A stretch of 41,024 bases of DNA from Candidatus Bathyarchaeum sp. (GTDB lineage Archaea; Thermoproteota; Bathyarchaeia; Bathyarchaeales; Bathyarchaeaceae), in contig CP070820.1 of NCBI GenBank assembly GCA_020344315.1, positions 793,325 to 834,348 on the forward strand. Direction: 5' to 3'. The position numbers and the translations under genes are program-made. Positions 7,829 through 36,563 of the stretch are shown one piece after another. The notes under the pieces are model-generated. The model did no database searches, was not told where the DNA came from, and was given only the letters and a program-made list of their open reading frames with translations. Numbering within the stretch: the stretch's first letter is position 1; every line of letters begins with the position of its first letter.

Positions 7829-7870
7829 GTGTTTGGATGGATTATCCATCCTGAAGAAGGTGCAGAACCA

Positions 7871-8824: not shown

Positions 8825-8841
8825 AATAACCCCTCTCTTTT

Positions 8842-8849
8842 TTTATAAA
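8842..8849 (+). promoter_or_regulatory. TATA box before the btuC-like gene
   Basis: TTTATAAA within a T-rich stretch directly after the btuF-like stop. Its centre is 18 bases before GTG 8864 and 30 bases before ATG 8876, so an internal transcript starting near 8872 would favour ATG 8876. The preceding T-tract could also end the upstream transcript. Confidence 0.4.
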
Positions 8850-8863
8850 CCTAAAAACGATTT

Positions 8864-9955
8864 GTGAAACATCAAATGAAGACCGACAGTGAAAAGGCGC
8901 ACTTAAAACGTGTTTCTCACTGGAAGTTATATATATTAATACTAATAATTGCATTCGGTCTCGTTCTTGTTTTATCGCTCAACTTGGGCTATGCCCATAT
9001 ACCCTTCGATGACATTCTGAAGATACTCGCAAAGCAAGTTCCTGGCATAAACTATCTGGTAGATTCCTCAGATATCACTCAAACAGCTGAGGTAATAATA
9101 ATGCAAATAAGGCTTCCCAGAGTAATATGTGGAGCTTTGGTTGGCGCGGCATTGGCAACAGCGGGTGTCATCTATCAGGGAATATTCAGAAACCCAATGG
9201 CCGACCCTTATACCATAGGGGCTTTAACAGGCGCCTCATTAGGCGCAGCACTCGTCATAGTTCTCGGAGTAGGAGTCTCACTTTTTGGTGTAAACACGCT
9301 TCAAATTTTAGCTTTTTTCGGCTCCATAACAACCGTCCTCATCGTCTATAACATATCAAGAGTTGGCTCTAGGGTTCCAGTCACAACTTTGCTCCTTACT
9401 GGGATAGCAATAAGCCTCTTCCAAAATGCCATAGTCACCTTTCTGAAAGTAATCGCCGAGGAAAAACTTCTTCACGGCCTAACTTTCTGGATCATCGGAA
9501 GCCTTGCACCGACAGAAAATTGGAACAATGTATGGTCCATCCTTCCCTTCATAGTGGTTGGGGCCACCATTTCTTACTTCTTCGCGCGCGACTTGAACAT
9601 CCTTGCTCTAGGAGAAGATCAAGCCCAGCACTTAGGCGTTGAAATAGAAAAGGTGAAACGAATATTACTGATTTGCGGAGCTCTCATAACCGCAGCCGCG
9701 GTCTCCATCAGCGGTATAATCGGTTTCGTTGGTTTAATAATTCCCCACTTGACAAGAGTCATAATAGGTCCTGACCACCGGGTTCTCCTACCAACCTCCG
9801 CCATCGTAGGCGCTTCTTTCCTAATGATCTGCGACGCCGTAGCAAGGGTGATAATGGGTTCCGGTGAGGCACCTGTCGGTATAATCACAGCGCTCTCCGG
9901 AGCTCCGTTTTTCATATATCTTCTGCGCCGGAAGAGGAAAGGATACATGGCATGA
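8864..9955 (+). CDS. btuC: ABC transporter permease, BtuC-like
   Basis: A 363-residue polytopic permease of the BtuC/FecCD family, the membrane channel of the importer. It has about ten hydrophobic helices. Family landmarks are IRLPRVICGALVGAALATAG near residue 85, the NPMADPYTIGALTGASLGA segment, the LGEDQAQHLGV cytoplasmic loop that contacts the ATPase, and the late GIIGFVGLIIPHLTR segment. GTG 8864 is taken as the start; ATG 8876, four codons downstream, fits the nearby TATA box better. It lies 39 bases after the binding-protein gene and 11 bases before the ATPase gene. Substrate specificity cannot be read from the sequence. Confidence 0.9.
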   Translation: MKHQMKTDSEKAHLKRVSHWKLYILILIIAFGLVLVLSLNLGYAHIPFDDILKILAKQVPGINYLVDSSDITQTAEVIIMQIRLPRVICGALVGAALATAGVIYQGIFRNPMADPYTIGALTGASLGAALVIVLGVGVSLFGVNTLQILAFFGSITTVLIVYNISRVGSRVPVTTLLLTGIAISLFQNAIVTFLKVIAEEKLLHGLTFWIIGSLAPTENWNNVWSILPFIVVGATISYFFARDLNILALGEDQAQHLGVEIEKVKRILLICGALITAAAVSISGIIGFVGLIIPHLTRVIIGPDHRVLLPTSAIVGASFLMICDAVARVIMGSGEAPVGIITALSGAPFFIYLLRRKRKGYMA

Positions 9956-9966
9956 GGTGATGAGCT

Positions 9967-11259
9967 GTGGTGGTTTTAACAATTGACGGCATTGACTGTT
10001 CCTATGGTTCCGTTAAGGTTCTAGAGGATGTCCAGTTTGGAGTTGAGAGCGGTGAATTCTTGGGTATTCTTGGTCCCAACGGCTCAGGAAAGACTACGTT
10101 ACTCAGAAGCATCAGTAGGGTCCTCAAGCCGCAGAAAGGAACGATCTTCATTGGCGACGCGGACATATACAAACTGAAAACGTTGGAAGTTGCCAAACAG
10201 TTGGCGGTAGTGCCGCAGGATACACCAGTAACCTTTGACTTCACTTCTCTGGAAGTAGTTCTTATGGGTCGCAATCCCCATATGCCCCGCTTCAGGATGG
10301 AGAGCAAAGAAGATCTTGCTATAGCAAAAAAATCCATGGAGCTCACTGGTACTTGGCAGTTTGCCGACAGACCAGTAACCGAACTTAGCGGTGGAGAAAA
10401 GCAACGCGTAATAATTGCACGTGCCCTAACTCAGGAACCCAAAATTCTTTTGCTAGACGAACCAACAACCCACTTGGACATCTGCAACCAACTTGAAATA
10501 ATGGACCTCATCAAACAGCTATGCAAAACCAAGAAGATGCTAATAATTGCAGTTTTTCACGACTTCAACCTCGCCGCCCGCTACTGTGACTCCCTCATCC
10601 TCTTGAAGGAAGGAAAAATCGTCGCTGTTGGAGAATCAAACAAGACTCTCACAAGCGAAAACGTCAAAAAAGTTTTTGCCGTTGACACCATCGTGAAGAA
10701 ACATCCTGTCACAGGCCAACTCCATGTCATCCCCATCTCAAGGCCTCAAAATCAGCTGCAAAAGAGCCTAATTATTCATCTGATATGTGGAGGCGGCACA
10801 GGCAGTCCCTTGATGAAGATTCTGACTGATGAGGGCTACACATTAACCGCTGGGGTCCTTAACCTGTTAGATACGGATCATGAGACGGCCCAGTTGCTAA
10901 AGATTCCAACAGCCAATGAGGCTCCATTCTCCCCAATAACTGACGAGGCTCACAAAGCTAACCTACAGATGATAAGCAAAACCAATGTCCTCGTAATAGC
11001 GCCGACTCAGTTTGGTGGTGGAAACTTACGAAACCTTGAGGCAGCAGAGAAGGCATTGGAAAAGGGAATACCCACCATAATTATAGAAGATGGAACTCTG
11101 GAAGAGAGAGACTTCACCAAAGGCAAAGCCACCAACTACCTGACGAAACTCAAAAACAACGGCGCCATAACCGTGAAGAGCACCAGCGAACTCCTGCATT
11201 TTCTCGACACCCTAGAAAACAAGAACAACAAAGGAACCCATCAAAAAAAGAAACCTTAA
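9967..11259 (+). CDS. btuD: ABC transporter ATPase, BtuD-like, with a fused C-terminal alpha/beta domain
   Basis: The first 255 residues form a complete ABC ATPase: Walker A GPNGSGKT at 36-43, Q-loop region VVPQDT, signature LSGGEKQR near 141-148, Walker B ILLLDEP, and switch His in FHDFN. It energises the BtuC-like permease. From about residue 265 there is an extra domain of roughly 165 residues with a glycine-rich CGGGTGSP strand-turn, LTAGVLNLLDTD, LVIAPTQFGGG and GIPTIIIEDG segments, which suggest a Rossmann-like alpha/beta fold. Comparable extensions occur in archaeal cobalamin-type ATPases; the role is unknown to me. The start is GTG 9967 or GTG 9970, preceded by a GAGGTGATG site that overlaps the btuC stop. 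Confidence 0.88.
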   Translation: MVVLTIDGIDCSYGSVKVLEDVQFGVESGEFLGILGPNGSGKTTLLRSISRVLKPQKGTIFIGDADIYKLKTLEVAKQLAVVPQDTPVTFDFTSLEVVLMGRNPHMPRFRMESKEDLAIAKKSMELTGTWQFADRPVTELSGGEKQRVIIARALTQEPKILLLDEPTTHLDICNQLEIMDLIKQLCKTKKMLIIAVFHDFNLAARYCDSLILLKEGKIVAVGESNKTLTSENVKKVFAVDTIVKKHPVTGQLHVIPISRPQNQLQKSLIIHLICGGGTGSPLMKILTDEGYTLTAGVLNLLDTDHETAQLLKIPTANEAPFSPITDEAHKANLQMISKTNVLVIAPTQFGGGNLRNLEAAEKALEKGIPTIIIEDGTLEERDFTKGKATNYLTKLKNNGAITVKSTSELLHFLDTLENKNNKGTHQKKKP

Positions 11260-11310: not shown

Positions 11311-12381
11311 TTGAGTCGCAAGGGACCATTATTCATTCTGCCTTGGAGATGCACACAAGCGTGCACCAGCAATTGCCTACACTGCGGCTTCGCATCAAAC
11401 CCTCCAGCCGCCGACGCCCTTGGAACCAAAAAGACCATGCATATTATTGATGAAATATATGATTTTGGCGCAAGTTATCTCGGGCTAGGTGGTGGGGAAC
11501 CCCTTCTACGAGAAGACCTGCCCGAAATACTAGGTTACGCAAAAAAGACTGGTTTGAATGTGAGCCTACTGACCAGCGGCTATTTTGTTGAGGGTAAAGT
11601 CTTCGATAATCTGGTTAGACATGGGGTTCGCATCTCATTAAGTGTTGATGGACCCGAAGAGATTAACGATGCTATTAGGGGAAAGGGTGCGTATGCAAAA
11701 GCCGTTTCAGCCATGGAGAAGACTTCAAAAGTGGGACTGCTGGACTGTCTTGTGGCAACCCTTGCTAATGTTGACGCAACCCGCAATAATGTCACCTCCG
11801 AAGATATGGAGCACATCATAAAACTGGCTCAAGAGTATGGTGCTAGGTGGGTGGTGATTCACGGGTTAATCCCCTTCAACCGAACAAAAGAACACCTCGC
11901 TAGGGCTCTCTCCCCACAACAGTACGAAAAGATTTGGAACGAAGTCTATGATCTGAGCCTGAAATATAAAGTAAAACCTGAAGTCAACGTTTATTGTCCC
12001 TTCTACGCACGAGTTGCCAAACAGCGGGGAATGCCGAACTTTGACGACTGGTTCAAGAATTTCTTCCTTGGCAAGTGCGCCATCGCCGGCAAATACATGA
12101 GCGTAATCGAAAACGGAGACGTCATCCCCTGCAGCTTCAATGACCGTATCCGACTAGGAAATGTTCAGGATAAGCCGCTGAAGCAAATCTGGGATGAACT
12201 ACAAACATCCGAATTCACCCTCAAGCTCAGAGACCGCAACAACCTGAAGGGCAAATGTGGTGTCTGCGAATACCGTGAAATTTGTGGTGGATGCCGAACC
12301 AGAGCAGAAATGTACACCGGAGACCTCTTTGCTTCTGATCCTGCATGCGGATACATCCCTAAAAGTTTGCGTGACAAATAG
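11311..12381 (+). CDS. Radical SAM/SPASM domain protein
   Basis: The 356-residue protein carries the radical SAM cluster motif C18-x3-C22-x2-C25, preceded by an extra Cys at 14, then GLGGGEPLLRED, the SAM-contact region, and SLSVDGPEE. The C-terminal SPASM region, from GKCAIAGKYMSV to the end, has Cys residues in IPCSF, GKCGVCEYREICGGC and DPACGY, sufficient for one or two auxiliary iron-sulfur clusters. SPASM proteins usually modify peptides or take part in cofactor or haem maturation. A TTG start at 11311 has GGTGAT seven bases before it. It follows the BtuFCD genes by 51 bases in the same direction. The substrate is unknown; an AhbC/AhbD-like or peptide-maturase role would be guesswork. 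Confidence 0.85.
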   Translation: MSRKGPLFILPWRCTQACTSNCLHCGFASNPPAADALGTKKTMHIIDEIYDFGASYLGLGGGEPLLREDLPEILGYAKKTGLNVSLLTSGYFVEGKVFDNLVRHGVRISLSVDGPEEINDAIRGKGAYAKAVSAMEKTSKVGLLDCLVATLANVDATRNNVTSEDMEHIIKLAQEYGARWVVIHGLIPFNRTKEHLARALSPQQYEKIWNEVYDLSLKYKVKPEVNVYCPFYARVAKQRGMPNFDDWFKNFFLGKCAIAGKYMSVIENGDVIPCSFNDRIRLGNVQDKPLKQIWDELQTSEFTLKLRDRNNLKGKCGVCEYREICGGCRTRAEMYTGDLFASDPACGYIPKSLRDK

Positions 12382-12405: not shown

Positions 12406-14715
12406 CTATCTTTTTGTTGAATACACGATAGTTCTGCCATTATCATAGACTCTATCTAGGTCAGGAGAAACATCGTTTTCTGAGAGGACCTTTTGCGAGT
12501 CAACGACTACAAATTTAATGTTATATTCTTCAATGTAAGTTCGGAAATCCCTTTCTTGAATTTCCATATTGGTTTCGTGATCTAATAGCTGCTTCAAATC
12601 TGATACTGCCCATTGTTCAATATCTTGGATCTCAGAATCGTAAAGAAGTGCTGAAGAAGAGATTTCTCGAGTCTCGCCCTCAGCCAAATTGCCGAATTCA
12701 TATCGGAGTCTCAAGGCATCTATTTTGCGATCATCTAAAGCACCGAGGTTAAGCCAATCTGGAAGGTCATGAAATTCAAAAACCGCGAATACTCCGTATT
12801 GAGAATCGTGAATTGCTAAAATGTTTTCGGCTAGCGTATGTGAATAGGCTTCTATTAAGGCCCATTTAGCCTCCGGATTTATTGATGAGGCGTTATCCCA
12901 TGGGTTCTGCCATTCAAGAATTCCGGGAACAAGTGCTTTCCTGAAGTGGAACGCAGGGTTCAGATCATTGGTAACTGTCAGTTTGGCACTTGCCAAGTTT
13001 TGATGAGCCTTAACTTTCCACTTGATGTTGATTACAGAGCTGTTACTTGAGAATGTAACAACCTTTTCGACAGTAAAGAGTTCGTGAGTATATTCAGAAA
13101 TCAGTTGAGCAGTATCATTAGTTTGCTGCGTCCAGTAAATATATTCATCAGTTTCGGAGAGGGGAGTCGGAACCCATTCGCCAAAAGGATCAACGTAAAT
13201 TACGTTCGCCTTTTTGTTTGGAATGCTGATGCCTTTCCTCCAAATGTTATAAACTGAGGCCAAAATTTCCTGTCCCGCGCTTGAGCTTGCTCGCGTATAC
13301 TCGCGGTTGAGAGTGAGAGTGTTATCCATCTCATAAAAGCTATACAATACTGCTTCGGCAGTTGCGTTTCTTGAATATTGAGGATCCGTCTCTTCTATGA
13401 CGTGATGATCGGAAAATGCGTTAAACCACGTTCCCGGGCTTCTTGAGGTAATGATTGTTCCCTCTGGAACTGAATGCTGGCTTATCCAGAGTCCAGAGTT
13501 GTAACTTGTGATTGATGCTCTTTCATAAAATTGTGGATAGGTTTCAATTCTTTGAAGAAAGAAGAAGCTCTGAAGAAGGAACAATGTGACGATTATCGCC
13601 AGAGAAAGAATCTTGGTAGCCTTCATGATCTTGCGTTTCATTTCGATATTTGAAGTAATTTTTGACTCGATGAAGGCGGGAAACTTTGTGAGGCTGTATG
13701 TGAATATTCTATATGTGAATATACCGGCAAGTATTGTCATTGGTGTGGCAAAGAAGTATACGAAACGGATGTAGGGTAGGTAAATTCCGAAGAGGTATGA
13801 CTGAGACAAAATGAAGGGAATGGCGATCCACAAAATAACTAATGCTAATGGTTTCAAGGATTTTTTCTTCAGTAAAATGTAAGTCATGGGTATGCCCGCT
13901 AATGCTAAGAATAAGGATGCCCCAAAGTTGTTCCTGATTAGAGCATCAAGGCCTACTTCTGGGATGCTGTAGATATTTTCTTTCATCGTGAAAAGGAGGT
14001 GTTGGATAACAGTGCTTGAGTACTGAAGTATGATTCCTGCATACCATGCCAGCAATGCTAAACCACCCCCCACAATTATCCCAAGAAGAGCTAGGAGTTT
14101 TTTCTTTGAACGGCCAGTGCTGACTAGAAAGGCGGGAACAAACATGAAAAAGAAAACGAAGGTGGTGAGTTGATGGGCCATTACGATGGTGAAGGCTCCA
14201 ACAAATAAGAGGAACGTTTTAACCGAGACTCGTAAGTCCTTGTTCATTATGTAAAAGATAAAGGCGATGTAAGCTAAACCCAGAAAGTTTGCGTAGCCTC
14301 CCCAAAAAACAATCTCCAAAAGCGGAACTGACAGAATCGTGAAGAGGGCTGAAGCGACGGCAGCACCTGTCCCAAAGAGTTTTCGGCTTAGCAAGTATGT
14401 TGACAGCAGCATCAGCACGTTGAGGGTTGCAATCAACATTTTTAGGATGAAAGCTGCGGCCATGACGTCAAGTGTTCCTGCAAATATTTGGAGGATTGCT
14501 AGGATGGTGTGAAATAGGGGTGGATACCATGGGAAAGTGCTATAGGTGACTCTCTCGTCTACTATGATTTTTTCTGATTTTCCTAGGTGTACCGCCGGGT
14601 CGTTTCCTGGAAGAATCCCGTCTGTGGACATCTGGTGAACTGTAACGATGAAGATGGTGAATACGGCAGTTAGGACGAAAACCAGTTCAATAGTGGATAG
14701 TTTTGCTTTTTGCAC
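12406..14715 (-). CDS. Large GT-C-like polytopic membrane protein with C-terminal extracytoplasmic domain (paralogue 1)
   Basis: From GTG 14715 the product has about 769 residues. The frame extends to a TTG at 14745, but a GGAGG site lies seven bases before 14715. The N-terminal 400 residues hold about eleven to twelve membrane helices. The first extracytoplasmic loop contains an acidic LPGNDPAVHLGKSEKI segment and then WYPPLFHTIL, the arrangement of GT-C glycosyltransferases (PMT, STT3 and GT39 types). The C-terminal 330 residues are soluble, rich in beta strands, and end in EEYNIKFVVVDSQ and GRTIVYSTKR. The gene at 15550-17787 is a clear paralogue. The likely role is transfer of lipid-linked sugar to surface targets; donor and acceptor are unknown. 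Confidence 0.65.
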   Translation of the reverse strand: MQKAKLSTIELVFVLTAVFTIFIVTVHQMSTDGILPGNDPAVHLGKSEKIIVDERVTYSTFPWYPPLFHTILAILQIFAGTLDVMAAAFILKMLIATLNVLMLLSTYLLSRKLFGTGAAVASALFTILSVPLLEIVFWGGYANFLGLAYIAFIFYIMNKDLRVSVKTFLLFVGAFTIVMAHQLTTFVFFFMFVPAFLVSTGRSKKKLLALLGIIVGGGLALLAWYAGIILQYSSTVIQHLLFTMKENIYSIPEVGLDALIRNNFGASLFLALAGIPMTYILLKKKSLKPLALVILWIAIPFILSQSYLFGIYLPYIRFVYFFATPMTILAGIFTYRIFTYSLTKFPAFIESKITSNIEMKRKIMKATKILSLAIIVTLFLLQSFFFLQRIETYPQFYERASITSYNSGLWISQHSVPEGTIITSRSPGTWFNAFSDHHVIEETDPQYSRNATAEAVLYSFYEMDNTLTLNREYTRASSSAGQEILASVYNIWRKGISIPNKKANVIYVDPFGEWVPTPLSETDEYIYWTQQTNDTAQLISEYTHELFTVEKVVTFSSNSSVINIKWKVKAHQNLASAKLTVTNDLNPAFHFRKALVPGILEWQNPWDNASSINPEAKWALIEAYSHTLAENILAIHDSQYGVFAVFEFHDLPDWLNLGALDDRKIDALRLRYEFGNLAEGETREISSSALLYDSEIQDIEQWAVSDLKQLLDHETNMEIQERDFRTYIEEYNIKFVVVDSQKVLSENDVSPDLDRVYDNGRTIVYSTKR

Positions 14716-15122
14716 CAATTGTCCTCCAACGTTGCTGGGAGTCAAGAGTACATGATTTATGAGATTTCCCTAATTAACATATCAGTTTATGTGGGTAAAA
14801 GTTCTCTTCAGAAGCCGTGTTGTTATTTATGTTTTCTTAGTGAGTGATTCCTTTTAGGAAGAGGAGACTAAGAAGATTGAAGGCTCCACGGTTACTTTGG
14901 GATATGAGACTGTAAATCAAGAATCCCTTGGGAAACAGATTAGAAACGTGGGATTTTGCCAAGGAGACTCCTGCTAAATATTAACTAACCTAACGCTCTA
15001 AACTTCACTTTACTTATGCCACAATATATCCATATTCGCAAATACATCGGTTTTCCCAGCATTTCTGCGCAAGAAACTTTCCTTTTAAGATTTGTCATCT
15101 CTTGCTTCTTAAGGTTGAAGTC
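14716..15122. other. Intergenic region of about 400 bases with a possible gene relic
   Basis: No convincing gene. One frame on the plus strand, 14858-14977, is open for 39 codons and reads EEETKKIEGSTVTLGYETVN before continuing to a TAA, but it has no start codon and may be the relic of a lost gene. A minus-strand reading at 14985-15194 overlaps the zinc protein gene and looks spurious. A TTTTAAG box near 15087 could serve the gene at 15123. Confidence 0.35.
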
Positions 15123-15549: not shown

Positions 15550-17787
15550 TCATCTTACTGCCTGAAAAATTGTGACGTTTCCATTGTTGAAGAGTCGCCG
15601 AAGGTTGGGGTCTTTCGAGAATTTCGCTTGGGCCTTCTTATCTCTGTTCACCACATATGAAACATCATATTCTTCTATCATTTCAACGTAGTTCCATGTA
15701 AAAAGCGGATCGAGGGTTACGGTTTCTAGGGGAGAAGCTGCGAGTTCGTGGTACATTTCCTCAACTTCGTTGGGGTAGCTCAGGTCTTTAGCGTCAAAAA
15801 CGCCGATTAGCATCCTCATGTTTATGTTTCGTTTCCATGAGTATCTATACTTCAAATCGACCCGGAGTGGTTCCAATTTTATCTGATCGATCTCTGCGGG
15901 TAAATCTCCTTTAAAGACAACTAGTCCACACACTTTCTGATCTGTGTCGTAAAATCCAAACATCTTCGGATACAAGTTTTCTTCCTTTATCACGTAGCCT
16001 TCTTTGGTGTAAATGTGGAGATAATTGAGGTATAGGTTGGTTCTAGGATCTTTGACCTCTATGTCATATGATAATTCAGCAAATCTTACTCCCCGCTGAA
16101 CTGTCAATGTTTTATTAACGATGAATAATTCGTCTTCAAATGTCGTTGTCAATGATGCTGAATTTTCGTCTTTCATTAGTATAGGCATCTGAACTATTCG
16201 CATGTCTGCCAATGTCGGGATTGGGTAGTCATCAGTTTCGTCCCCTTCAATCTCGTACCAAAATTCTAACCCACTGTCTTGGAAATTTAACACAGAAAAA
16301 GATTCTCCAACCCGTGCCTCGATGCTGAACTCAGGGTTGTGACGCGAAAGATGGACACCATCCTCTCTCACTTGGATCAAGCAGTTGTCAATGTAATAAT
16401 TAGTGTCAAGGAGAAGCTGCGCTGATTTTGCAACCTCAATCTCATGCAAATATAAGAGGAACTCCAAACCAGCTGCGCTAAGGGTGGTTCTCTCGCCAAC
16501 TCCAGAAAGCCACCACCCATAAAGGTGATCGGCGACGAGAACAGAAGATTCTGGGATTCTGTTCTGAATCCACTCCATAGCCGTTGCTTCAGGTCCATGT
16601 ATTGTCGTGTAAAAGTCCACTCGTTCCATGGCCTCGTTTGGAAAAATAGACCAAGGCGAAAGAACAATGAAGACAAAGAGACTTGCAATAAAAACTGCGG
16701 GAACTAATTTCTTAACTCTACTCCATTTGGTTCTTTGGGTTTTCCTGAGGGCAATTGAGATGAGGCGAAAAAGATAGAGTAAGCTTGCTGATATTATCAG
16801 TATTCCAGGAAAGTCTATGAAATACATGAACCTTGAGTAATCAACGAATACACCAAAAATGTGGGACTGAGTCATAATTAGTGGCACAAGAAACCATGCT
16901 ATCAGCAGCAAGCTCCAATTATCGAAATATCTTTTTCTGGATGCTTTGAGCATAAGAAATGTTGGGATTAGAACGATGACTAGGCTCAGAATTATGCCTA
17001 TGATGGTACGGTTTGCAAGGATCAGATTTTTGTTCTCTTCCAGCCCTCCCAAGAGGACTCCTTCCGATGAAACACCCATGTAAAAGTTGAGGACCCTCAG
17101 TAGCCACGGTGATACAACTATAATTCCTAATGCTACTGAAATAGTGAAGAAACGTAGCGGTTTTAGGAGTTTTATCTCCTTGAGTTTTCGAGCCTTCCCT
17201 ATGAACAGGGATGCGAAGTAGAATATTATGATTGGAAAAAAGACAAATAGACTGAATGTGTGCGTGAGGATGATACTGCCGAAAAGCATGGTTCCCATCA
17301 GTAGGTTGATGTAGCTTGGCTGATCTAGGTCTTTGAGAAACAGATAGAAGAGTGTTACAATTAGGGCGAGAGAGATCACGTTGGTGTAGCCTCCCCAACT
17401 TATCATCTCAAGGCTTAAGGCTGAAACCGCTGCAAAAAACGCTGCCAGAGTTCCCGCGCTGTGGCTCCTCCATATCTTTTTTGATATAAGATAAGCGGGA
17501 AAAACTATGAATGCACTGAAAAAGGCGGCTGTGACGAGTTGTGCAATTAGTAATGGCATTCCTGTGAGGAGAATCAGTGTTGATACAAAGAAGTGGAATC
17601 CTGGGGGAGTTGCAAGAGGTTCTCCTCCCATGTGATATGGGTTCCAGAGGGGCAGTTTTCCCTCATCGAGAATCAAGTTTAGGATGCTGCCGTGTAGTCC
17701 AATGTCTGAACTTGGGGGGTGCTCATTGTGGAAGAGAATGGCTACTCGAAAGAGGAATGCGAGGATGAATATGGTGAAGAGTAGCAG
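15550..17787 (-). CDS. Large GT-C-like polytopic membrane protein (paralogue 2), start region out of frame
   Basis: A paralogue of the gene at 12406-14715, with the same layout: many membrane helices, then a soluble beta-rich domain ending EEYDVSYVVNRDKK and NVTIFQAVR. The first outer loop contains PPSSDIGLHGSIL and GEPLATPPGFHFF, matching the acidic loop and PP-FH segment of paralogue 1. The only standard in-frame start is TTG 17676, but it removes the first membrane helix and the acidic loop. The frame is open to 17832; CTG 17787 is one possible start. An ATG at 17830 has a TATA box 27 bases upstream but is one base out of frame; losing one base there would give M-SFQRWSTTRHK before the first helix. 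Probably a surface-glycan transferase. Confidence 0.62.
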   Translation of the reverse strand: MLLFTIFILAFLFRVAILFHNEHPPSSDIGLHGSILNLILDEGKLPLWNPYHMGGEPLATPPGFHFFVSTLILLTGMPLLIAQLVTAAFFSAFIVFPAYLISKKIWRSHSAGTLAAFFAAVSALSLEMISWGGYTNVISLALIVTLFYLFLKDLDQPSYINLLMGTMLFGSIILTHTFSLFVFFPIIIFYFASLFIGKARKLKEIKLLKPLRFFTISVALGIIVVSPWLLRVLNFYMGVSSEGVLLGGLEENKNLILANRTIIGIILSLVIVLIPTFLMLKASRKRYFDNWSLLLIAWFLVPLIMTQSHIFGVFVDYSRFMYFIDFPGILIISASLLYLFRLISIALRKTQRTKWSRVKKLVPAVFIASLFVFIVLSPWSIFPNEAMERVDFYTTIHGPEATAMEWIQNRIPESSVLVADHLYGWWLSGVGERTTLSAAGLEFLLYLHEIEVAKSAQLLLDTNYYIDNCLIQVREDGVHLSRHNPEFSIEARVGESFSVLNFQDSGLEFWYEIEGDETDDYPIPTLADMRIVQMPILMKDENSASLTTTFEDELFIVNKTLTVQRGVRFAELSYDIEVKDPRTNLYLNYLHIYTKEGYVIKEENLYPKMFGFYDTDQKVCGLVVFKGDLPAEIDQIKLEPLRVDLKYRYSWKRNINMRMLIGVFDAKDLSYPNEVEEMYHELAASPLETVTLDPLFTWNYVEMIEEYDVSYVVNRDKKAQAKFSKDPNLRRLFNNGNVTIFQAVR

Positions 17788-18275: not shown

Positions 18276-19016
18276 CTAACTTACAGTTGCAAGAACGACG
18301 AGGAGGGCGAGCATCCTGTTAATTTCGTTTGTTGCTCCCATAACGTCGCCAGTTATGCATCCCAAGGTTTTGTCAGCATAAAAACTGACGGCAACTACAG
18401 CGATTTCCATTGCAACAAAAACAAAAACAAAATTGATGCCAACCAACAAGAAAACTATAACCGCAGACAAGATTACAGAAAAGAGAGCCTTCAAGTGTCT
18501 ATTCTTCATAGATTCAACCACATAATATCCCATGCCCTTATACATCGGCGTCCTCCCCATGTAGGCAGTCAAAACCATGCTCTCCTTAGCCACTATCTCA
18601 GCGACTACTGCCGCCTTCACGATGTCCAAACCAGAAAAATATCCAAAAGCTAAACCCGTTACAACAAGAACAATAACCCCAGCTGCTACCGCCGCCGCAC
18701 CCGTGAACATATCATGCATAACCTCCAACCTTCTTTTAGAGTCACCCCTAGCCATCGCAGCATCACCAAAATCCAAGAGACCGTCTAAATGATGAAAACC
18801 AGTTAGAAGCTGTATGCTAACTAAGACAAAAAAACCAGAAATCAAGTCTGGCAGAAAAATGTTTGACACAAAACCTACTGCCCCAGCAATAAAACCTATT
18901 ACTAATCCCACTAGGGGACAGAGAAAAAAATATTTGGATACCTCCTCAATCGATTCCATTCCAACGGGCACAATCGTTAAGAAACTGAACAAAGCCTTCA
19001 AACCTTTGATTACCAA
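18276..19016 (-). CDS. cobS: Adenosylcobinamide-GDP ribazoletransferase (cobalamin synthase)
   Basis: CobS joins adenosylcobinamide-GDP with alpha-ribazole in the last steps of cobalamin assembly, in the membrane. The 246-residue protein has the family core GFHHLDGLLDFGDAAMARGD, whose acidic residues bind magnesium, then RLEVMHDMFTGAAAV and about seven hydrophobic helices. The usual length is 240-260 residues. The TTG start at 19016 has a GAAGGTGT site four bases upstream (19021-19028) and a TATA box at 19060-19068. It diverges from a corrinoid protein-mtrH pair, whose product needs a corrinoid. Together with BtuFCD this suggests that the cell can complete cobamide made or imported as precursor. 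Confidence 0.93.
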   Translation of the reverse strand: MVIKGLKALFSFLTIVPVGMESIEEVSKYFFLCPLVGLVIGFIAGAVGFVSNIFLPDLISGFFVLVSIQLLTGFHHLDGLLDFGDAAMARGDSKRRLEVMHDMFTGAAAVAAGVIVLVVTGLAFGYFSGLDIVKAAVVAEIVAKESMVLTAYMGRTPMYKGMGYYVVESMKNRHLKALFSVILSAVIVFLLVGINFVFVFVAMEIAVVAVSFYADKTLGCITGDVMGATNEINRMLALLVVLATVS

Positions 19017-19068: not shown

Positions 19069-19133
19069 GTCTTTTAAGCTTGTTCAAGGTTTCCCGCCTA
19101 AAGGACATCCTTTGTTACTGCTTTGACACAAAG

Positions 19134-19140
19134 CTTATAC
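19134..19140 (+). promoter_or_regulatory. TATA box for the corrinoid protein-mtrH pair
   Basis: CTTATAC. A start near 19163 would give a leader of about 31 bases with GAAGGT at 19181-19186, seven bases before ATG 19194. The divergent cobS promoter lies only about 70 bases away, so one regulator could control both. Confidence 0.45.
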
Positions 19141-19193
19141 GCGGGTGCACGCATAAAACCCCAATTACCCTATGTAAAAAGAAGGTATCTATA

Positions 19194-19622
19194 ATGTCTT
19201 GGTTAAAATCCATGATGGAAAAGGAACCGCCTGAACCTGAAAACCCCATAGGAACCGTTGTAATAGGCACCCTTGAACCCGACATGCACCTGACCCCCAA
19301 AGAAATGGTACGAAAGTCTCTCAAAAAAGCCCTCTTCAAATGCGTTGATGTCGGAAAAAAGGCACCAGCCGCCTCTTTCGCTTCAAAAGCCAAAGAAGTA
19401 AACGCCGACATCATAGCCGTTTCAATAAACACAGCCCCGGCTAAAAATAACATACCAAAGTTGATGGAAGCCATCGAGGCTGAAGGTCTGAAGGGCAAAG
19501 TCACTATTATGATTGGTGGCGCTGCCGTGGACAAAGAGGACGCAGACAAGATAGGCGCTATGTACGGGGAGACTAGAGAAGAGGCCGTAGCCCTCGCAAA
19601 GAAGGCTATGCAAGCAAAATAA
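19194..19622 (+). CDS. Compact corrinoid-binding protein (B12-binding domain), probable partner of MtrH
   Basis: The 142-residue product is almost only a B12-binding Rossmann domain. It aligns with the methyltransferase corrinoid proteins MtmC/MtbC: VVIGTLEPDMHLTPKEMV stands where they have the DxHxxG motif, followed by FKCVDVG, a conserved Ser in IIAVSINT, and IMIGGAAV. Asp and His, the lower-ligand pair, are kept, but the Gly of DxHxxG is Pro. The N-terminal helical cap of MtmC-type proteins is missing; only about 18 residues precede the domain. The start ATG 19194 has a GAAGGT site. It lies 45 bases before mtrH, so it probably accepts the methyl group that MtrH removes from a pterin. Confidence 0.8.
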   Translation: MSWLKSMMEKEPPEPENPIGTVVIGTLEPDMHLTPKEMVRKSLKKALFKCVDVGKKAPAASFASKAKEVNADIIAVSINTAPAKNNIPKLMEAIEAEGLKGKVTIMIGGAAVDKEDADKIGAMYGETREEAVALAKKAMQAK

Positions 19623-19667
19623 GCTCAAGGCGACAAATTCTTCGAATAAAAAATGAAGTGAGCTAGA

Positions 19668-20585
19668 ATGTTTAGGTTTGAAAAGGAACAGAAAATTGTT
19701 GATGCCGGTGGAATAAAGCTTGGAGGCCAGCCTGGAGAGCTTCCCACTGCTCTCACTGCCACAATCTTTTACATTGGTCACAAGATCGTTTCAGATAAGA
19801 AACAGGGAATTTTCGATAAGGAAAAAGCTGAACATCTAATCAACAGGATGGACGAGCTTTCCGATATGACAACAAACCCGTTCATCTTGGATGTTGTAGG
19901 CACTTCCGTACAGGCTTTCGAAAGTTACATCGATTTCATCGCCAAAGTAACCAATGCTCCCATACAGATAGACGCCATAAGTCCCAGACTAAGAAGGGAA
20001 GCCATCAAGTGGGCGAGTGAAGCTGGCTTGTCAAAGAGACTCGTCAATAACTCCATCTACAGAGGAGTCAAAGAGAAAGAGTTAGAAAATCTGAAGGCCT
20101 GTGGAGTCAAAGCATCAATTGTCTTATGTGACAATCCTGCTGATGAGAGTACCCAAGGTAAATTGGATGTTTTACCCGGGATACTAGAAATGGCTGATCA
20201 AGCAGGAATCGAAGGCGCTCTTATTGATACAGCTATGCCCTCTTGGGGAATAGGAATAGGAGCAGGTCTTAGGTCTATCTACCTGATTAAAGAAATGTAT
20301 GGTGACCGCGGAGCCGTTGGAACAGGAATCGGAAACGTATCTGACACCCTCGGATGGGTCAAAGGCAACTTCCCGAAAGACATCAAAAAAGCCGTCGACG
20401 CCTCACAGAACGCTATACTACCAATGATCGGAGCCGACTGGATTATGTTTGGACCCATCGAATTTGCAGAATTTGTCTTCCCAGCTGTTGCGGTAGTAGA
20501 CACCTACATATTGACTGCGACCGCAGAACTTGGCACCAGACCTGCAATCGAAGGAATGCATCCTCTCTTCAAGCTCGTAGGCTAA
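19668..20585 (+). CDS. mtrH: Methyl-tetrahydromethanopterin:corrinoid methyltransferase, MtrH family
   Basis: MtrH moves a methyl group between a tetrahydropterin and a corrinoid protein. The 305-residue product has the family's opening FEKEQKIVDAGGIKLGGQPG, the FILDVVGTS and IQIDAISPRLRREA segments of the TIM-barrel fold, and GTGIGNVSDTLGWVKGNFP. In methanogens MtrH belongs to the eight-subunit Mtr complex; no mtrA-G genes are seen here, so it probably works with the corrinoid protein encoded just upstream. Such stand-alone pairs are known or proposed in non-methanogenic archaea for methyl shuffling into the Wood-Ljungdahl pathway. ATG start at 19668 with a GTGAG-type site. A hairpin and T-tract terminator follows. 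Confidence 0.92.
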   Translation: MFRFEKEQKIVDAGGIKLGGQPGELPTALTATIFYIGHKIVSDKKQGIFDKEKAEHLINRMDELSDMTTNPFILDVVGTSVQAFESYIDFIAKVTNAPIQIDAISPRLRREAIKWASEAGLSKRLVNNSIYRGVKEKELENLKACGVKASIVLCDNPADESTQGKLDVLPGILEMADQAGIEGALIDTAMPSWGIGIGAGLRSIYLIKEMYGDRGAVGTGIGNVSDTLGWVKGNFPKDIKKAVDASQNAILPMIGADWIMFGPIEFAEFVFPAVAVVDTYILTATAELGTRPAIEGMHPLFKLVG

Positions 20586-20610
20586 ACTAAACAACCTGAA
20601 ATTTTTCCAC

Positions 20611-20638
20611 GGGCTTCACGCCCATTTTTTTTGTTTTT
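20611..20638 (+). terminator. Hairpin plus T-tract terminator after mtrH
   Basis: GGGC and GCCC form a stem around a five-base loop (20611-20623), followed directly by an eight-T run and a second five-T run. It lies 26 bases after the mtrH stop and would end the corrinoid protein-mtrH transcript. Confidence 0.6.
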
Positions 20639-20774
20639 CAGAATTCCAGCCTTAACACTCTGACGAGTTCGCAAAAGTTTCTCCTACAACAATCGGTTTA
20701 CCCGTAGCCCTTAATTAGTTGACTTGGAGAACTACGCTTTTATGTAAACTTGCTCATAAGAAGGTTGGTGCACA

Positions 20775-21341
20775 ATGAAATCCCTAGAAAAAGCCATCTT
20801 AGAAGTCTTGGAGACGAAGCAACCGAAGAATGTGAAAGAACTAGTTCAGTTAGTTCAAGAACAAGTTGACGCCACACTAGAAGATATAGAGAAAGAAGTA
20901 AAGAGTCTTCACCAAAAGGGTCTAGTGTTACTTGAGGAACTAAAGCAAAAAGAAAATTTCATCAGCTTCCTGTCTCCAAGAAAAGGTCTCTGGTTCTGGA
21001 TTGTCATAGGCTTATCCCTTCTCTCATTCGTTTCGATCCTGTTGATTCCTGCGACCGGAACATCATTGTCCTATTTACGTTACATATTCGGTTTTCTTCT
21101 AGTAGCCTTTCTACCTGGCTACTGTCTGAACGAAACACTCTTTCCCAGAGAGGATACTATGGACATAATCGAACGATTCACTTTTTCCATCGGATTAAGC
21201 TTCGCCGTCACAGCCTTAGTAGCGCTCTTCCTGAGCTTCACTCCCTTCGGCTTGACCCTTACAACAGCGCTTTCCGCTTTAGGTTCTCTAGTGATTGTTT
21301 TGGCTATAATGGCTCTGATTCGAAAATACATAGCGCAATAA
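20775..21341 (+). CDS. DUF1616 family membrane protein with N-terminal winged-helix-like region
   Basis: The 188-residue product begins with a charged helical region of about 70 residues (KAILEVLETKQPKNVKELVQ, then VKSLHQKGLVLLEE), which looks like a small winged-helix or tetrahelical domain. Four hydrophobic helices follow, with the DUF1616 landmark YIFGFLLVAFLPGYCLNETLFPR, quoted as FGFLLVAFLPGY and ETLFPR, and an ERFTFSIGLSFAV segment. DUF1616 proteins are often longer, with a C-terminal outer domain that is missing here. Some members accompany surface polysaccharide genes, but their function is unknown. ATG 20775 has an AAGGTTGGTG site. It stands alone, after the mtrH terminator. Confidence 0.75.
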   Translation: MKSLEKAILEVLETKQPKNVKELVQLVQEQVDATLEDIEKEVKSLHQKGLVLLEELKQKENFISFLSPRKGLWFWIVIGLSLLSFVSILLIPATGTSLSYLRYIFGFLLVAFLPGYCLNETLFPREDTMDIIERFTFSIGLSFAVTALVALFLSFTPFGLTLTTALSALGSLVIVLAIMALIRKYIAQ

Positions 21342-21466
21342 TCACTTTCTAGACTCACAATCACAGTAAAATTTGCTCTTTGACTTCTTTTAGGAAGAAG
21401 AAATTGCCGCAATCAAAAGTTATTTAACTATAATGAAATGAATAGGCAAGAGAGAGGGGTAATATT

Positions 21467-22099
21467 GTGACTTCTGAATCGACTGAAGCTTTGTCGAAGG
21501 GTATTGATACTTCAATAAAGAATCCAATATTGTTTATTCCAGCGCTTGTTCCGATTATTATTCACGTGTTATTTCTAATTTTAGCCTATGCAGTTTCAAA
21601 TACATGGCTAGTTTGGGGCGGGCAATTCATAGCATCCATTCTTGGATTCTTTGCATATTGCATGATCGTTGACATGGCAAATGACGGAATTAATGGTCAG
21701 CCAATAGACCTAAACAAAAGTATGAATGTTGTAACTGGCAGATTAGGAACTTTGATTCTTGCCGCGATTATATTTGCCGTTTTCGCCATCACATTTATCC
21801 TAATTCCTGTTGCACTATTCATCATCACAATTGCAATAGTAGAGAAGACAGACGCTATCAAAAGTACAACAAAATCATTTGACTTTGTAATCAAGAATTT
21901 GGGGGAAGTCATTGTTTTCCTTATCATCGTGATAGTTGTCTGGATTGTTCTGGGCATCGGTTTCGCATTAATTCCAGTCGTCGGTGCGTATCTTGGTTCT
22001 GTGTTCAGTTGGCTTCTAAACGTCGTTTTAATCATTGCAGCTGTGCACTTTTATCTTTCTCTGAGACCGCAACCGCCTCCACCCCCAACCCAAGACTAG
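21467..22099 (+). CDS. Polytopic membrane protein of unknown function
   Basis: The 210-residue product has about five membrane helices. The order is a short polar N-terminus, a helix pair, a conserved-looking DMANDGINGQPIDLNKSMN loop, further helices with the turn ATKSFDFVIKN-type motif (here STTKSFDFVIKN), and a proline-rich tail (PQPPPPPTQD). The loop and the KSFDFV turn are typical of a broad archaeal and bacterial family of glycerophosphoryl-diesterase-like membrane domains of unknown function. GTG start at 21467 after an AGAGAGGGG purine-rich site. It is followed by the inverted repeat at 22180-22215. No enzymatic motif is visible. Confidence 0.65.
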   Translation: MTSESTEALSKGIDTSIKNPILFIPALVPIIIHVLFLILAYAVSNTWLVWGGQFIASILGFFAYCMIVDMANDGINGQPIDLNKSMNVVTGRLGTLILAAIIFAVFAITFILIPVALFIITIAIVEKTDAIKSTTKSFDFVIKNLGEVIVFLIIVIVVWIVLGIGFALIPVVGAYLGSVFSWLLNVVLIIAAVHFYLSLRPQPPPPPTQD

Positions 22100-22179
22100 T
22101 GATCCATTGCAAGAATTGGGTTTTAGATTCTGGGCTGCCAGAGATTAAAAGCTTCTAGCATCTCGGTTGGCACGCGAAT

Positions 22180-22215
22180 TTAGATGTAACAATAATTTGT
22201 GAAAAAACATCTAAA
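22180..22215. repeat. Perfect nine-base inverted repeat
   Basis: TTTAGATGT at 22180-22188 and ACATCTAAA at 22207-22215 are perfect complements with an 18-base loop. It lies between the convergent genes ending at 22099 and 22277 and could be a bidirectional terminator or a protein-binding palindrome; no long T-tract follows. Confidence 0.4.
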
Positions 22216-22276
22216 ACTCCAATGCTCGGGTGGAATTACGCCGTCGACCAAGTTTACCAACAATCTCCCCTTATGG

Positions 22277-23107
22277 CTAGGCGGAATCGAGCATCGGCGG
22301 ATAGGAGTCGGCTGGATATTCCACGTGTAACAAGAGCAAGAGCCCCAAGATTGTGGTGTGCCAGGCGGAGTCGCCCTGCCCATCGCTGGAAAAATCCCAG
22401 GACCCGTCATCATTTTGGCTCGATATGACGCTCTCGATAAAAGAATCGTCAACTAGCGCGCCCTGTCCTGCCAGGTAGAGAAATGCCGCGGCTTCTAGCT
22501 TGAGGTCATTTACAATCATGGGTTCGTTGTTGATTATCGCAGCGTTCGCCTGGTACACCTCGTCAATAAATCCATCGGGCAGTGCCAGTTCACAGCCGTT
22601 TTCCTGAATCCAGACCAAGGACAGTAACACATGTGTCAGATAATAATCCCCCCTACTCGCCTCTTTCTCAAGCAACTCAGGGTAATCAATTGGTAATCCC
22701 AGACGATCGCAATAGAGGGCATAGACAAAGTAATACTCGAACGTCTTTAGAATCGCCGACAAGTCCTCAGCCCTTACCAGATTGTTATAATCGGCGATTC
22801 GACGAAACACACGCATCCTCGAAGCCTGTTCCGACCCGCGTGTGGCCAGCACTTCGTCGTAGCGCTGCAAGGAATCGGCGAACTCCGTGATTCCGAAACG
22901 CCGGTGCATCACATCGAGCCACAATAGGGCGTCCGGCTCTAGCGACCCCTCAAAAAAGTCGATCGCGTTCCCGATTGCGGAAGACAGGTCCAGCTCGGCC
23001 GGCAAGTCCGGCTCATGATACGTCAGTAGCGGTACTACAAACAAAAGACTGCAAACCACAGTTATACAAAAAGCCGCCAAGAGAGCTCCAAGTTTCCAGT
23101 GTTTCAT
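22277..23107 (-). CDS. Exported or membrane-anchored alpha/alpha-barrel-like protein in a GC-rich island
   Basis: From ATG 23107 the product has 276 residues. A frame extension to TTG 23143 exists, but a TTTATAAAA box lies about 27 bases before 23107 and a GAGG site precedes it. Residues 6-30 form one hydrophobic segment (LGALLAAFCITVVCSLLFVV), a signal anchor. The rest is helical and ends with SSQNDDGSWDFSSDGQGDSA and a helix LLLLLHVEYP, resembling one QxxDGSW repeat of the squalene-cyclase/prenyltransferase fold. Catalytic motifs of those enzymes are not seen. Codons are clearly GC-richer than in both neighbours, suggesting horizontal transfer. The function is unknown. Confidence 0.65.
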   Translation of the reverse strand: MKHWKLGALLAAFCITVVCSLLFVVPLLTYHEPDLPAELDLSSAIGNAIDFFEGSLEPDALLWLDVMHRRFGITEFADSLQRYDEVLATRGSEQASRMRVFRRIADYNNLVRAEDLSAILKTFEYYFVYALYCDRLGLPIDYPELLEKEASRGDYYLTHVLLSLVWIQENGCELALPDGFIDEVYQANAAIINNEPMIVNDLKLEAAAFLYLAGQGALVDDSFIESVISSQNDDGSWDFSSDGQGDSAWHTTILGLLLLLHVEYPADSYPPMLDSA

Positions 23108-23458
23108 AAACACTTTCCTCGCTTCGTTTTTATAAACATGCAATTGGAGTTTATTTCACCGATCTATTAAATATAGTTGCGCGTGCATCGATCCCAAGTT
23201 CCAATTAAATTTAACCCTCACTCCAAGAATTCAGGGATTAAATGCTTTCTCTGATTGCTATTTCTTTAGATTCTCTTATTCATAATCTCTCTTCTGCTTA
23301 GATTACTCACTTTCATAACCGAAGCAGTTCTTATAGGAGTTATTGGTGTAAATGCAGAGAAGATAATTCGCTTTTCACCTGGATTTCAGTGTGGAAATCA
23401 GGTAATAACCCTTAAATTTGCACAATCACCCTGTAACCTAACCCTAGAGGAACTGAAA
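23108..23458. other. Intergenic region of about 350 bases, divergent promoters
   Basis: This separates the GC-rich gene from the accessory locus and is AT-rich. A TTTATAAAA box at its left end serves the minus-strand gene. No frame longer than about 20 codons has a credible start. The last bases before ATG 23459 read CTAGAGGAACTGAAA, giving a GAGG ribosome-binding site. I see no RNA gene or repeat. Confidence 0.5.
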
Positions 23459-24430
23459 ATGAATTCACTTGATCATATCTGTTCAGAAATTCGCCGCCTC
23501 ATCGACAAGGTTGTCAAAAGAAATCTAACGGAGGGAATCCTCTTTTCCGGAGGATTAGACACAAGCGTCGTTGCATTTGTAGCATCCAAATACACTAAAC
23601 TTGAGGCATTCACCGTTGCCTTCGAAAACTCTCCGGCACTAGACCTCAAGTACGCAAAGTTGATGGCAGATTTGCTGAAGATGAACCACACGATTCATTA
23701 TTTTGGAGAAGAGGAGATGCACTCAGCAATCCAAGATGTCATAAAGATTCTGAAGGTTTTTGATCCCATGGACATTAGAAACAGCGTAGCAGCCTATGTT
23801 GGTCTAAAAGTCGCGAAAGAAAACGGAATCAAAAGCGTCATGACAGGCGACGGCTTAGACGAACTCCTAGCCGGTTACAGCTGGCTCTTCAATCTCAACG
23901 AAAAAGCGCTAAAGGAATACCTGTCCAACATGTGGCAAGTTATGCAGTTCACCTCAATTCCCATGGCAAAATCTCTAGGAATGGTATCCAAGCCCCCATT
24001 TCTTGATCCAGAATTCAAATCCTTCGCTTTCGGCGCCGACCCAAAGCTGATGATCAGAAGCGAACGGGGTAAAACTTGGGGAAAATGGATAATTCGCAAA
24101 GCCTACGAGGGTCTCTTGCCTGACGAGATAGTGTGGAGAATAAAGACTCCCATAGAATTTGGCTCTGGAACCACCATTTTCCCAAAGGTTTTCGCCAGAA
24201 AAATCTCTGACAAATATATCCAAAATAAAGCCAAGAAGTACCTGGAGTCTGATCAGGTTACTATAAGAGACAAGGAGCACCTGTTCTACTACGAAATTTT
24301 CAGGTCCCATTTTGGAGTACCTGCTGAATTCTTCAAGGATGCGGAAGGCAAGCGTTGTCCTTACTGCAATTCTAAAGGCGGTAACGAGAGAAGCAAATTC
24401 TGCAAAGTATGCGGAGCCTATCCTATCTAG
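23459..24430 (+). CDS. Asparagine-synthetase-type ATP-pyrophosphatase domain with C-terminal zinc ribbon
   Basis: The 323-residue product matches the synthetase half of class B asparagine synthetase: the PP-loop SGGLDTS at 30-36, the TGDGLDELLAGY segment near 140, and the RKAYEGLLPDEIVWRIKTP segment. AsnB enzymes activate a carboxylate with ATP and transfer ammonia from an N-terminal glutaminase domain, which is missing here. At the C-terminus C300-x2-C303 and C315-x2-C318 form a zinc ribbon. It may therefore use free ammonia, another amine, or act on a carrier-bound substrate. ATG 23459. The gene opens a co-directional series with the GT4 and radical SAM genes, so an amidation or ligation step in surface or lipid biosynthesis is possible. 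Confidence 0.8.
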   Translation: MNSLDHICSEIRRLIDKVVKRNLTEGILFSGGLDTSVVAFVASKYTKLEAFTVAFENSPALDLKYAKLMADLLKMNHTIHYFGEEEMHSAIQDVIKILKVFDPMDIRNSVAAYVGLKVAKENGIKSVMTGDGLDELLAGYSWLFNLNEKALKEYLSNMWQVMQFTSIPMAKSLGMVSKPPFLDPEFKSFAFGADPKLMIRSERGKTWGKWIIRKAYEGLLPDEIVWRIKTPIEFGSGTTIFPKVFARKISDKYIQNKAKKYLESDQVTIRDKEHLFYYEIFRSHFGVPAEFFKDAEGKRCPYCNSKGGNERSKFCKVCGAYPI

Positions 24431-24498
24431 TTCATTTTTTATACTGCATTGCCAAAGAATGGCTAGGGAAACCGCTCTAGAACTAGAGGCAAATATCA

Positions 24499-25692
24499 AT
24501 GAAAAGGAAGCTGAAGGTAGCGGTCTTTAACACGCAGCCACCTCACCTTTACTTTGGAGGCGTTGAACGCCGAATAGTTGAGATTGCTAAACGATTGGTA
24601 AATGAAGTTGACACGACGGTTTATAGCGGAACCAAAAAAGGATTCAACAAATCTACTGTGATCAGCGGAACAGCCATCGTTCCCTGCTTCTCCACAGATG
24701 TGCTTTATCCGCTAGACAACTGGGTTTTCAACCGGTCCCTCTCTGCAATGTCTGTAGATATTGGAGCCGACATCTACGAGGCGCATACTGTTAGTGGTTA
24801 CGGATTCCTTAAGGTTCTCAAGAAGCAGAAAAACAGCAAGCCGTTCATACAGACTATTCACGGTGTTCTGGCGGACGAATATGCTCAATCGGTCAAAAGC
24901 AGGTCTCCGTCCCTCAGAATGAAACTCTCTAATGTTTTCATGTGGCACCTTGCAAGAATCGAAAAGGAAGCAACCAAAGAGGCAACTCTGATAGTTACTG
25001 TCAGCAGATACTCTGCCAAAAATCTAGTTCAATTATATGATGTTGATGAGACGAAAATAAGAATAGTACCAAACGGTGTAGACCATCAAAGGTTTAAACC
25101 TGCTGAATATTGTGAAAAAGTCAAGGATAGAATCGGTGAAAACAACAAACATGTCATACTCTTCGTTGGCAGCCTAATACCCAGAAAAGGGTTACATTTC
25201 TTAATCGAAGCAGCCAAACATATTATCAAAGAAAATAAAGACACCAAGTTTGTAGTAGTTGGAGACGGCCCACTCAAAAACCATCTAATCTCATATTCAA
25301 AAGAGCAGGGTGTTTCGGACAAATTTGCCTTCTTAGGAAATGTTCCCGAAGCCATGCTTCACCGATTATACAATTGTGCTGATGTTTTTGCTTCTCCATC
25401 AATTCAGGAAGGGCAAGGCATCACACTGCTGGAGGCTCAAGCCACAGCTAAGCCAGTGGTTGCCTTCAACGTTAGCGCAATCAATGAAGTCGTAAAAAAT
25501 AACGAAACTGGACTATTAGTTAAACCGGATAGTTACGAACTAGCCAACGCTATTTCACGTCTCCTTTCGGACACGTCCTTACGGGAAAAGATGGGGCGTT
25601 CTGGGCGCGATTTCGTTAGTAAACATTTTTCTTGGGATATTTGTGCTCAGAATATGTTCCAAGTGTATTCTGAAGCGGCGGAATGGATTTGA
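24499..25692 (+). CDS. Glycosyltransferase family 4 protein
   Basis: The 397-residue product has the GT-B layout. The N-terminal domain begins KVAVFNTQPPHLYFGGVERR with the GG-ER acceptor-side loop of GT4 enzymes. The C-terminal domain begins near residue 205 with ILFVGSLIPRKGLHFLIEA, then VVVGDGPLK, ASPSIQEGQGITLLEAQA with the E-x7-E nucleotide-sugar motif, and NETGLLVKPDS. GT4 enzymes are retaining and act in the cytoplasm with nucleotide sugars. ATG 24499 has an AGAGG site. It lies 68 bases after the asparagine-synthetase-like gene. It could build the glycans carried by surface proteins such as the one at 32578; acceptor and sugar are unknown. Confidence 0.92.
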   Translation: MKRKLKVAVFNTQPPHLYFGGVERRIVEIAKRLVNEVDTTVYSGTKKGFNKSTVISGTAIVPCFSTDVLYPLDNWVFNRSLSAMSVDIGADIYEAHTVSGYGFLKVLKKQKNSKPFIQTIHGVLADEYAQSVKSRSPSLRMKLSNVFMWHLARIEKEATKEATLIVTVSRYSAKNLVQLYDVDETKIRIVPNGVDHQRFKPAEYCEKVKDRIGENNKHVILFVGSLIPRKGLHFLIEAAKHIIKENKDTKFVVVGDGPLKNHLISYSKEQGVSDKFAFLGNVPEAMLHRLYNCADVFASPSIQEGQGITLLEAQATAKPVVAFNVSAINEVVKNNETGLLVKPDSYELANAISRLLSDTSLREKMGRSGRDFVSKHFSWDICAQNMFQVYSEAAEWI

Positions 25693-36396: not shown

Positions 36397-36563
36397 TCTG
36401 CCGTTCACTACCCATAGAACACTTTTTTTGGTCCCTGTCCCAATCCTCATTCAAGCTGATCTAGGCAATATCGGTTATGCTTTTGGAAACCTAAAAACGT
36501 TTGGAAAAATCATAGTCCAACGTTTTATTCTAAAAATGAAGTTTCTTTTTTGTTTGTGCTACC

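Follow-up and report, generated by a model that had tools for sequence, protein, structure and literature searches.

A capless corrinoid protein and its MtrH-family partner in a Candidatus Bathyarchaeum genome: a probable MtgC-MtgA pair without MtgB

Methyl-transfer couples of the Bathyarchaeia

Two systems of the Bathyarchaeia come closest to the locus described in this work. Loh et al. (2021) reported a Bathy-6 corrinoid protein (CoP) gene flanked by mtrH, the closest functionally annotated relatives of the protein being MtbC/MttC, and discussed both methylotrophic and anabolic roles (PMC7886697). Yu et al. (2023) described, in another member of the Bathyarchaeia, Ca. Baizosediminiarchaeum ligniniphilus, a cluster of two mtgB genes, one mtgA, one mtgC and a gene for a transmembrane protein, the latter a candidate transporter. 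The two MtgB proteins have some 300 amino acids and are 44.85% similar; MtgB_2 transfers the methyl group of guaiacol and vanillin to MtgC, which carries cobalamin and takes up methyl from guaiacol, and the methyl flow proposed for this three-part O-demethylase continues from the corrinoid to H4MPT. The published enzyme assays cover MtgB together with MtgC, and not MtgA (PMC10989822). In addition, a 2024 paper reported that every Bathy-6 genome it covered has MtgA and MtgC, and that one subgroup is without MtgB (PMC11697101), and B. tardum, a congener of the organism studied here, grows on methoxylated aromatics (DMB, vanillate), needing yeast extract or casamino acids, of which the second can replace the first (PMC10477458).

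The window, that is, the whole stretch of 41,024 nucleotides analysed (bases 793325-834348 of the 1.56-Mb single-contig genome of a Candidatus Bathyarchaeum sp.), holds a gene for a small corrinoid protein followed by an MtrH-family gene. This is the already known CoP-MtrH couple of Bathy-6 (PMC7886697): the lineage is the same, and the orthologous pair is present in Bathycorpusculum loci among L084-L105, although the MtrH of the window's genus is more diverged (47-51% identical to that of the other group, against 62-74% for the corrinoid protein). Moreover, anatomy, size and lineage suggest that the pair corresponds to MtgC and MtgA in the aromatic O-demethylase of Bathyarchaeia. As in Ca. 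B. ligniniphilus, a corrinoid protein of ~15 kDa, an MtrH-like MT2 and a transmembrane protein are encoded together in a bathyarchaeon, whereas mtgB, encoding the substrate-specific MT1, is missing from the window's genome (PMC10989822); the complete MtgABC was not found there, and proteins of the MtgC and MtgA types remain.

The corrinoid protein and its MtrH-family partner

The first gene of the pair (19194..19622, forward strand) encodes a protein of 142 amino acids, P0001, in which a profile search recognises the PF02310 B12-binding domain with 56 bits, over a gathering threshold of 32.1. Translation likely begins with the ATG at 19194, since MSWLKSMMEKEP (MSWLK...) is kept at the same place in relatives, while the extra upstream part of a longer ORF with a TTG start is not conserved in them. 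The AlphaFold model, a Rossmann fold built with an alignment of 57 sequences (mean pLDDT 82.7), places the beginning of strand 1 at residue 21, leaving only ~20 residues ahead of it. Coordinates, length, domain match and this short lead all agree with the original prediction of a B12-domain protein devoid of the helical cap. The position of the cap is occupied by a conserved N-terminal segment, MSWLKSMMEKEPPEPENP (19194..19247, forward strand), near-invariant in the alignments and modelled with low confidence (mean pLDDT below 70 for residues 1-20 and below 50 for residues 3-8), which is probably a flexible or docking peptide.

The fingerprint of corrinoid-binding domains has been given as DXHXXG-41-42-SXL-26-28-GG (PMC4915002). 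P0001 fits every spacing of it, with D30-M-H32-L-T-P35, 41 residues to S77 and 28 to G108-G109, and retains D, H, S and GG, the deviations being Gly to Pro and Leu to Asn. Since MetH works by a His-Asp-Ser relay (PMC4915002), the cobalt-ligand chemistry would be expected to be kept in P0001. The DMHLTP motif pointed out at the outset is right as read; the Pro, whose conservation was to be checked, turned out to be one of several replacements, the position being occupied mostly by Ala in the relatives, by Pro in the window's genus as well as in a few more, by Ser in one, and by Gly in none of the members of the pair family.

The closest solved relatives of P0001 by sequence are MttC (7xcn), the Moorella corrinoid protein 1y80, 4jgi and MetH; Foldseek ranked MttC 7xcn first among PDB structures, with TM values of 0.82-0.83 for 7xcn and 1y80. 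A structural alignment gives 37% identity between the B12 domains of P0001 and MttC, both with D-x-H...S...GG. Nevertheless, MttC and MtbC have an N-terminal helical cap and Gly in DxHxxG, whereas the family of P0001 is capless and has Pro or Ala, so that P0001 falls outside the capped corrinoid proteins (TIGR02370, MttC/MtbC/MtaC) by its N-terminus. P0001 is thus, as judged from sequence and predicted fold, an MttC/MtbC-type corrinoid domain without the cap. Its calculated mass of 15,193 Da (15.19 kDa) lies next to the ~15,190 Da implied for MtgC by the assay concentration of 1.2 mg/ml, equated with ~79 uM (15.19 kDa; PMC10989822), an indirect agreement that takes no account of a tag and whose precision is partly luck; a capped corrinoid protein would be of ~23 kDa, unlike the ~15-kDa MtgC. 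Another capless, stand-alone B12 domain is the S subunit of glutamate mutase, with ~137 residues. Its partner is an adenosylcobalamin isomerase, and the process is not a methyl transfer.

The provision of the cap by a separate protein was considered and rejected, as PF02607 had no match in the 15 genomes tested that encode the small corrinoid protein, nor anywhere in the window's genome, while the same model, used as a control, had a match in 9 of 14 control genomes. The absence of the cap is family-wide, and no account of it was found in the literature examined, as far as the available text of those papers goes.

The second gene (19668..20585, forward strand) starts 45 bases downstream and encodes P0002, an MtrH-family methyltransferase of 305 amino acids with the probable MT2 role of an MtgA-type protein. 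It is full-length, as had been claimed, with 275 bits for PF02007 and 282.5 bits for TIGR01114, over the mtrH equivalog cut-off of 271.4; the orthologue of locus L046 lies just under this value (269.9). Its relatives in the PDB are 8z9u, 9qtp and 6sj8, and the window's genome has a single MtrH copy. The terminator announced downstream came down to a 4-bp GC stem with a T run at ~20610-20640, unscored by the terminator scan; a T-rich transcription stop after the gene is plausible in an archaeon. Upstream, AAAGCTTATA (19133..19142, forward strand), with a core nearly invariant in five congeners, is probably the archaeal TATA/BRE element of the pair's promoter. Searches of the window for tRNAs and Rfam families were negative.

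According to the original prediction, P0001 would be an MtrA-like acceptor taking methyl from methyl-H4MPT via MtrH, in a minimal soluble version of Mtr. The MtrH of methanogens is indeed homologous to P0002, which scores over the mtrH cut-off, and MtrA is capless as well, as the prediction stressed and as its single Rossmann-type domain would lead one to expect (PMC4915002); however, MtrA belongs to another family, without the DxHxxG fingerprint carried by P0001, and is not among the best 50 structural matches of P0001, whose fold is like that of MttC. Moreover, PF04208 (MtrA) had no match in the window's genome or in 14 relatives, and no partner from the coenzyme M pathway is known in the former. 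It is thus very improbable that P0001 takes the place of MtrA, and P0002 does not belong to an MtrA-containing Mtr complex. What stands of the minimal pair is the combination of a soluble corrinoid protein with an MtrH-family protein in the absence of MtrA; what does not is its novelty as a stand-alone module, the two proteins matching the MtgC and MtgA of the three-part O-demethylase.

Several neighbours of the pair can be recognised. A third gene (20775..21341, forward strand) encodes a small membrane protein corresponding to the N-terminal part of DUF1616 (PF07760, 67.9 bits), and in most loci where the sequence extends far enough, a gene of this type comes next after the pair. The divergent neighbour (18276..19016, reverse strand) encodes CobS, for cobamide assembly (TIGR00317, 161.8 bits); its linkage to the pair is found in the window's genus only, where it adjoins the pair in five congeneric loci. 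Some 8 kb upstream of the pair (7829-11259), a binding protein, an FecCD permease and an ATPase are encoded in a row, likely forming a corrinoid or iron-chelate ABC importer. They are followed by a radical SAM/SPASM protein (11311-12381), closest to the heme b synthase AhbD (203 bits, under the cut-off of 500), with orthologues near the pair in congeners, and by two large membrane proteins that match no Pfam family (12406-14745 and 15550-17676); most loci have homologues of them upstream of the pair, of which the one in L046 weakly resembles the archaeal STT3 oligosaccharyl transferase. Further downstream, 30804-32306 and 34945-36450 each encode a radical SAM protein that has a B12-binding domain.

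Distribution of the pair and loss of mtgB

When 84,980 species genomes were scanned with patterns taken from the N-terminal segment, by which more distant relatives could be missed, 58 loci came up, all of them in records labelled Bathyarchaeota, Bathyarchaeum or Bathycorpusculum, or more widely Crenarchaeota/Nitrososphaerota. The search for the same pair in archaeal genomes, proposed with the original prediction, was thereby answered positively, the MtrH gene lying directly downstream and on the same strand in 52 of the 58. D-x-H is kept in 51 of these 52 copies, the remaining one having a stop at codon 3. This copy (L075:6001-6420) is an otherwise intact small corrinoid gene with an in-frame TGA (MS*LKS), due either to a sequencing error or to a start further on. 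Both genes of the pair show dN/dS values of ~0.04-0.18 against congeners, where estimable, and this purifying selection, together with conservation in 52 of 58 loci, shows that the association is not a chance one. Among 60 related genomes there is a clean separation: identity to P0001 reaches 64-84% in the window's genus and in one other family (f7, to which Bathycorpusculum belongs); elsewhere it does not exceed 41%, the best matches being longer proteins with an N-terminal extension.

A long branch (0.46) carries the MtrH of Bathyarchaeum and of L055, the matching branch of the corrinoid protein being short (0.09). Replacement of the genus's MtrH by a foreign copy, considered because MtrH is so much less identical to the other group than the corrinoid protein is, was set aside, as both trees agree in their placement, although the long branch persists. 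Since both of them group the genus and L055 beside L061, L063, L106 and L072, a faster change of MtrH within the genus would seem the simpler account.

The other 6 of the 58 loci hold small corrinoid proteins without MtrH beside them, and in all these orphans the DxH motif is broken: His is lost in five (DIMTTA, DMMDTA, EVMDTA) and an extra residue stands inside the motif in one. The association of orphan state with broken motif is drawn from sequences sharing ancestry, so that the cases cannot be taken as independent events. The two orphan pairs compared are under purifying selection and not decaying, as their dN/dS ratios are near 0.15 (0.097/0.653) and 0.10 (0.052/0.540). Orphan loci with a broken DxH are listed as L033, L035, L037, L049, L056, L059, L062 and L064; orphans adjoin dnaK/dnaJ-like genes in three congeners and a cysteine desulfurase-like gene in L041/L056. 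No description of such paralogues was found in the literature examined, in the portions available.

In congeners, two proteins of ~300 amino acids, which match no Pfam or NCBIfam model above its cut-off and are 44-46% identical to each other, are encoded in tandem beside the pair, in line with MtgB_1 and MtgB_2 of the published cluster. By their anatomy these would be MtgB; the model predicted for the candidate resembles a TIM barrel and matches glycosidases weakly, which narrows its identity no further. A profile search detected this candidate MtgB three to four times per genome in all seven congeners, and not at all in the window's genome (G000). The corresponding site (21342..24498) carries mtgB-mtgB-cbiZ-mtgB in congeners; in the window it is filled by genes for a DUF7847-like protein, a 288-aa protein and an asparagine-synthase-like protein, its flanks (20775-21341 and a glycosyltransferase-like gene at 24499-25692) being syntenic in five congeners. 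These 3.1 kb are unrelated genes, and no significant match to a remnant of mtgB or cbiZ was found in the window. The genome completeness of 88% is not the cause of the absence at this main site, since the syntenic flanks enclose other genes. mtgB has thus been lost from the syntenic site with the pair intact, and it is by this loss that the minimal-pair state of the window's genome arose. A clean local loss with retention of the pair was not described in the literature examined, to the extent of the text available. A relative of the asparagine-synthase-like protein (23459-24430) is also encoded close to the pair and to a CbiZ-like gene in the termite loci L084, L085, L091, L093 and L098, which are without MtgB nearby.

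The disappearance of mtgB and cbiZ from the site could suggest that the pair is a functionless vestige, decaying after the loss. This is very unlikely, as both reading frames are intact, dN/dS is low against the MtgB-bearing congeners, the window's branches are no longer than those of congeners in either tree, and three termite genomes of f7 (G045, G048 and G057) also keep the pair without MtgB.

Probable role of the pair

The pair probably represents the MtgC and MtgA of a Bathyarchaeia methyl-compound system, moving methyl from corrinoid to H4MPT, with a donor other than MtgB in this species. In such a system, P0001 would bind cobamide, His32 serving as the lower ligand of the cobalt with support from Asp30 and Ser77, and would take up methyl on cob(I)amide as methyl-Co(III); P0002 would then hand the methyl group to H4MPT, and methyl-H4MPT could be converted into acetyl-CoA through CODH/ACS, which is present in the window's genome. 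Access to cobalt without a cap would presumably be set by the partner enzyme and perhaps also by the conserved N-terminal peptide. Methyl exchange between corrinoid and tetrahydropterin in a non-methanogen, as originally predicted, is supported as the most likely role, the flux in this species most likely running towards H4MPT. Against this explanation it counts that the Gly of DxHxxG is absent throughout the family, and the window's genome has no known methyl donor enzyme, since MtgB and, in profile searches, the MTTB and URO-D-type methyltransferases were all without match. The donor in the window's species would be a methyltransferase or compound different from the lost MtgB.

The main rival is the anabolic direction, in which methyl-H4MPT made by Mer, also present in the window's genome, would pass through the MtrH-family enzyme and P0001 to a biosynthetic acceptor, e.g. 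a methionine synthase that is of the MesC type or has escaped recognition. Corrinoid proteins are considered the donors required by core methionine synthases (PMC7857596), a CoP-MtrH pair adjoins metE in Methanomethylicus (PMC7886697), and the pair persists without MtgB and without faster evolution; nevertheless, no methionine synthase gene was recognised beside it at any locus seen, and Mer had no match in the three MtgB-less termite relatives that keep it. In favour of the anabolic direction, no MetE/MetH-type synthase was found with PF01717 and PF02574 in the 15 genomes with the pair, the window's included; PF01717 is probably blind to MesC, as this model had no match in Methanosarcina acetivorans, the source of the MesC reference Q8TUL3 (PMC7857596). 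The need of B. tardum for yeast extract or casamino acids speaks against it, as this would fit auxotrophy (PMC10477458). On balance, the anabolic direction is improbable.

Returning to the pair as MtgC and MtgA, it is conceivable, if rather speculative, that in the MtgB-less Bathyarchaeia it has been rewired, either to a methyltransferase family not yet recognised or to a corrinoid relay run in reverse, by which methyl-H4MPT supplies a biosynthetic acceptor (a methionine synthase that has escaped recognition, for example), and that the orphans with a broken DxH act as His-off carriers like CoFeSP.

These results link an odd gene pair to the published lignin-methyl pathway of abundant sediment archaea and correct the analogy with MtrA. 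Furthermore, the methyl-transfer corrinoid proteins of this lineage apparently work without a helical cap, the structure by which methylcobalamin is protected elsewhere. As the corrinoid/MtrH half outlives its known demethylase, the source of the methyl group becomes a testable question.
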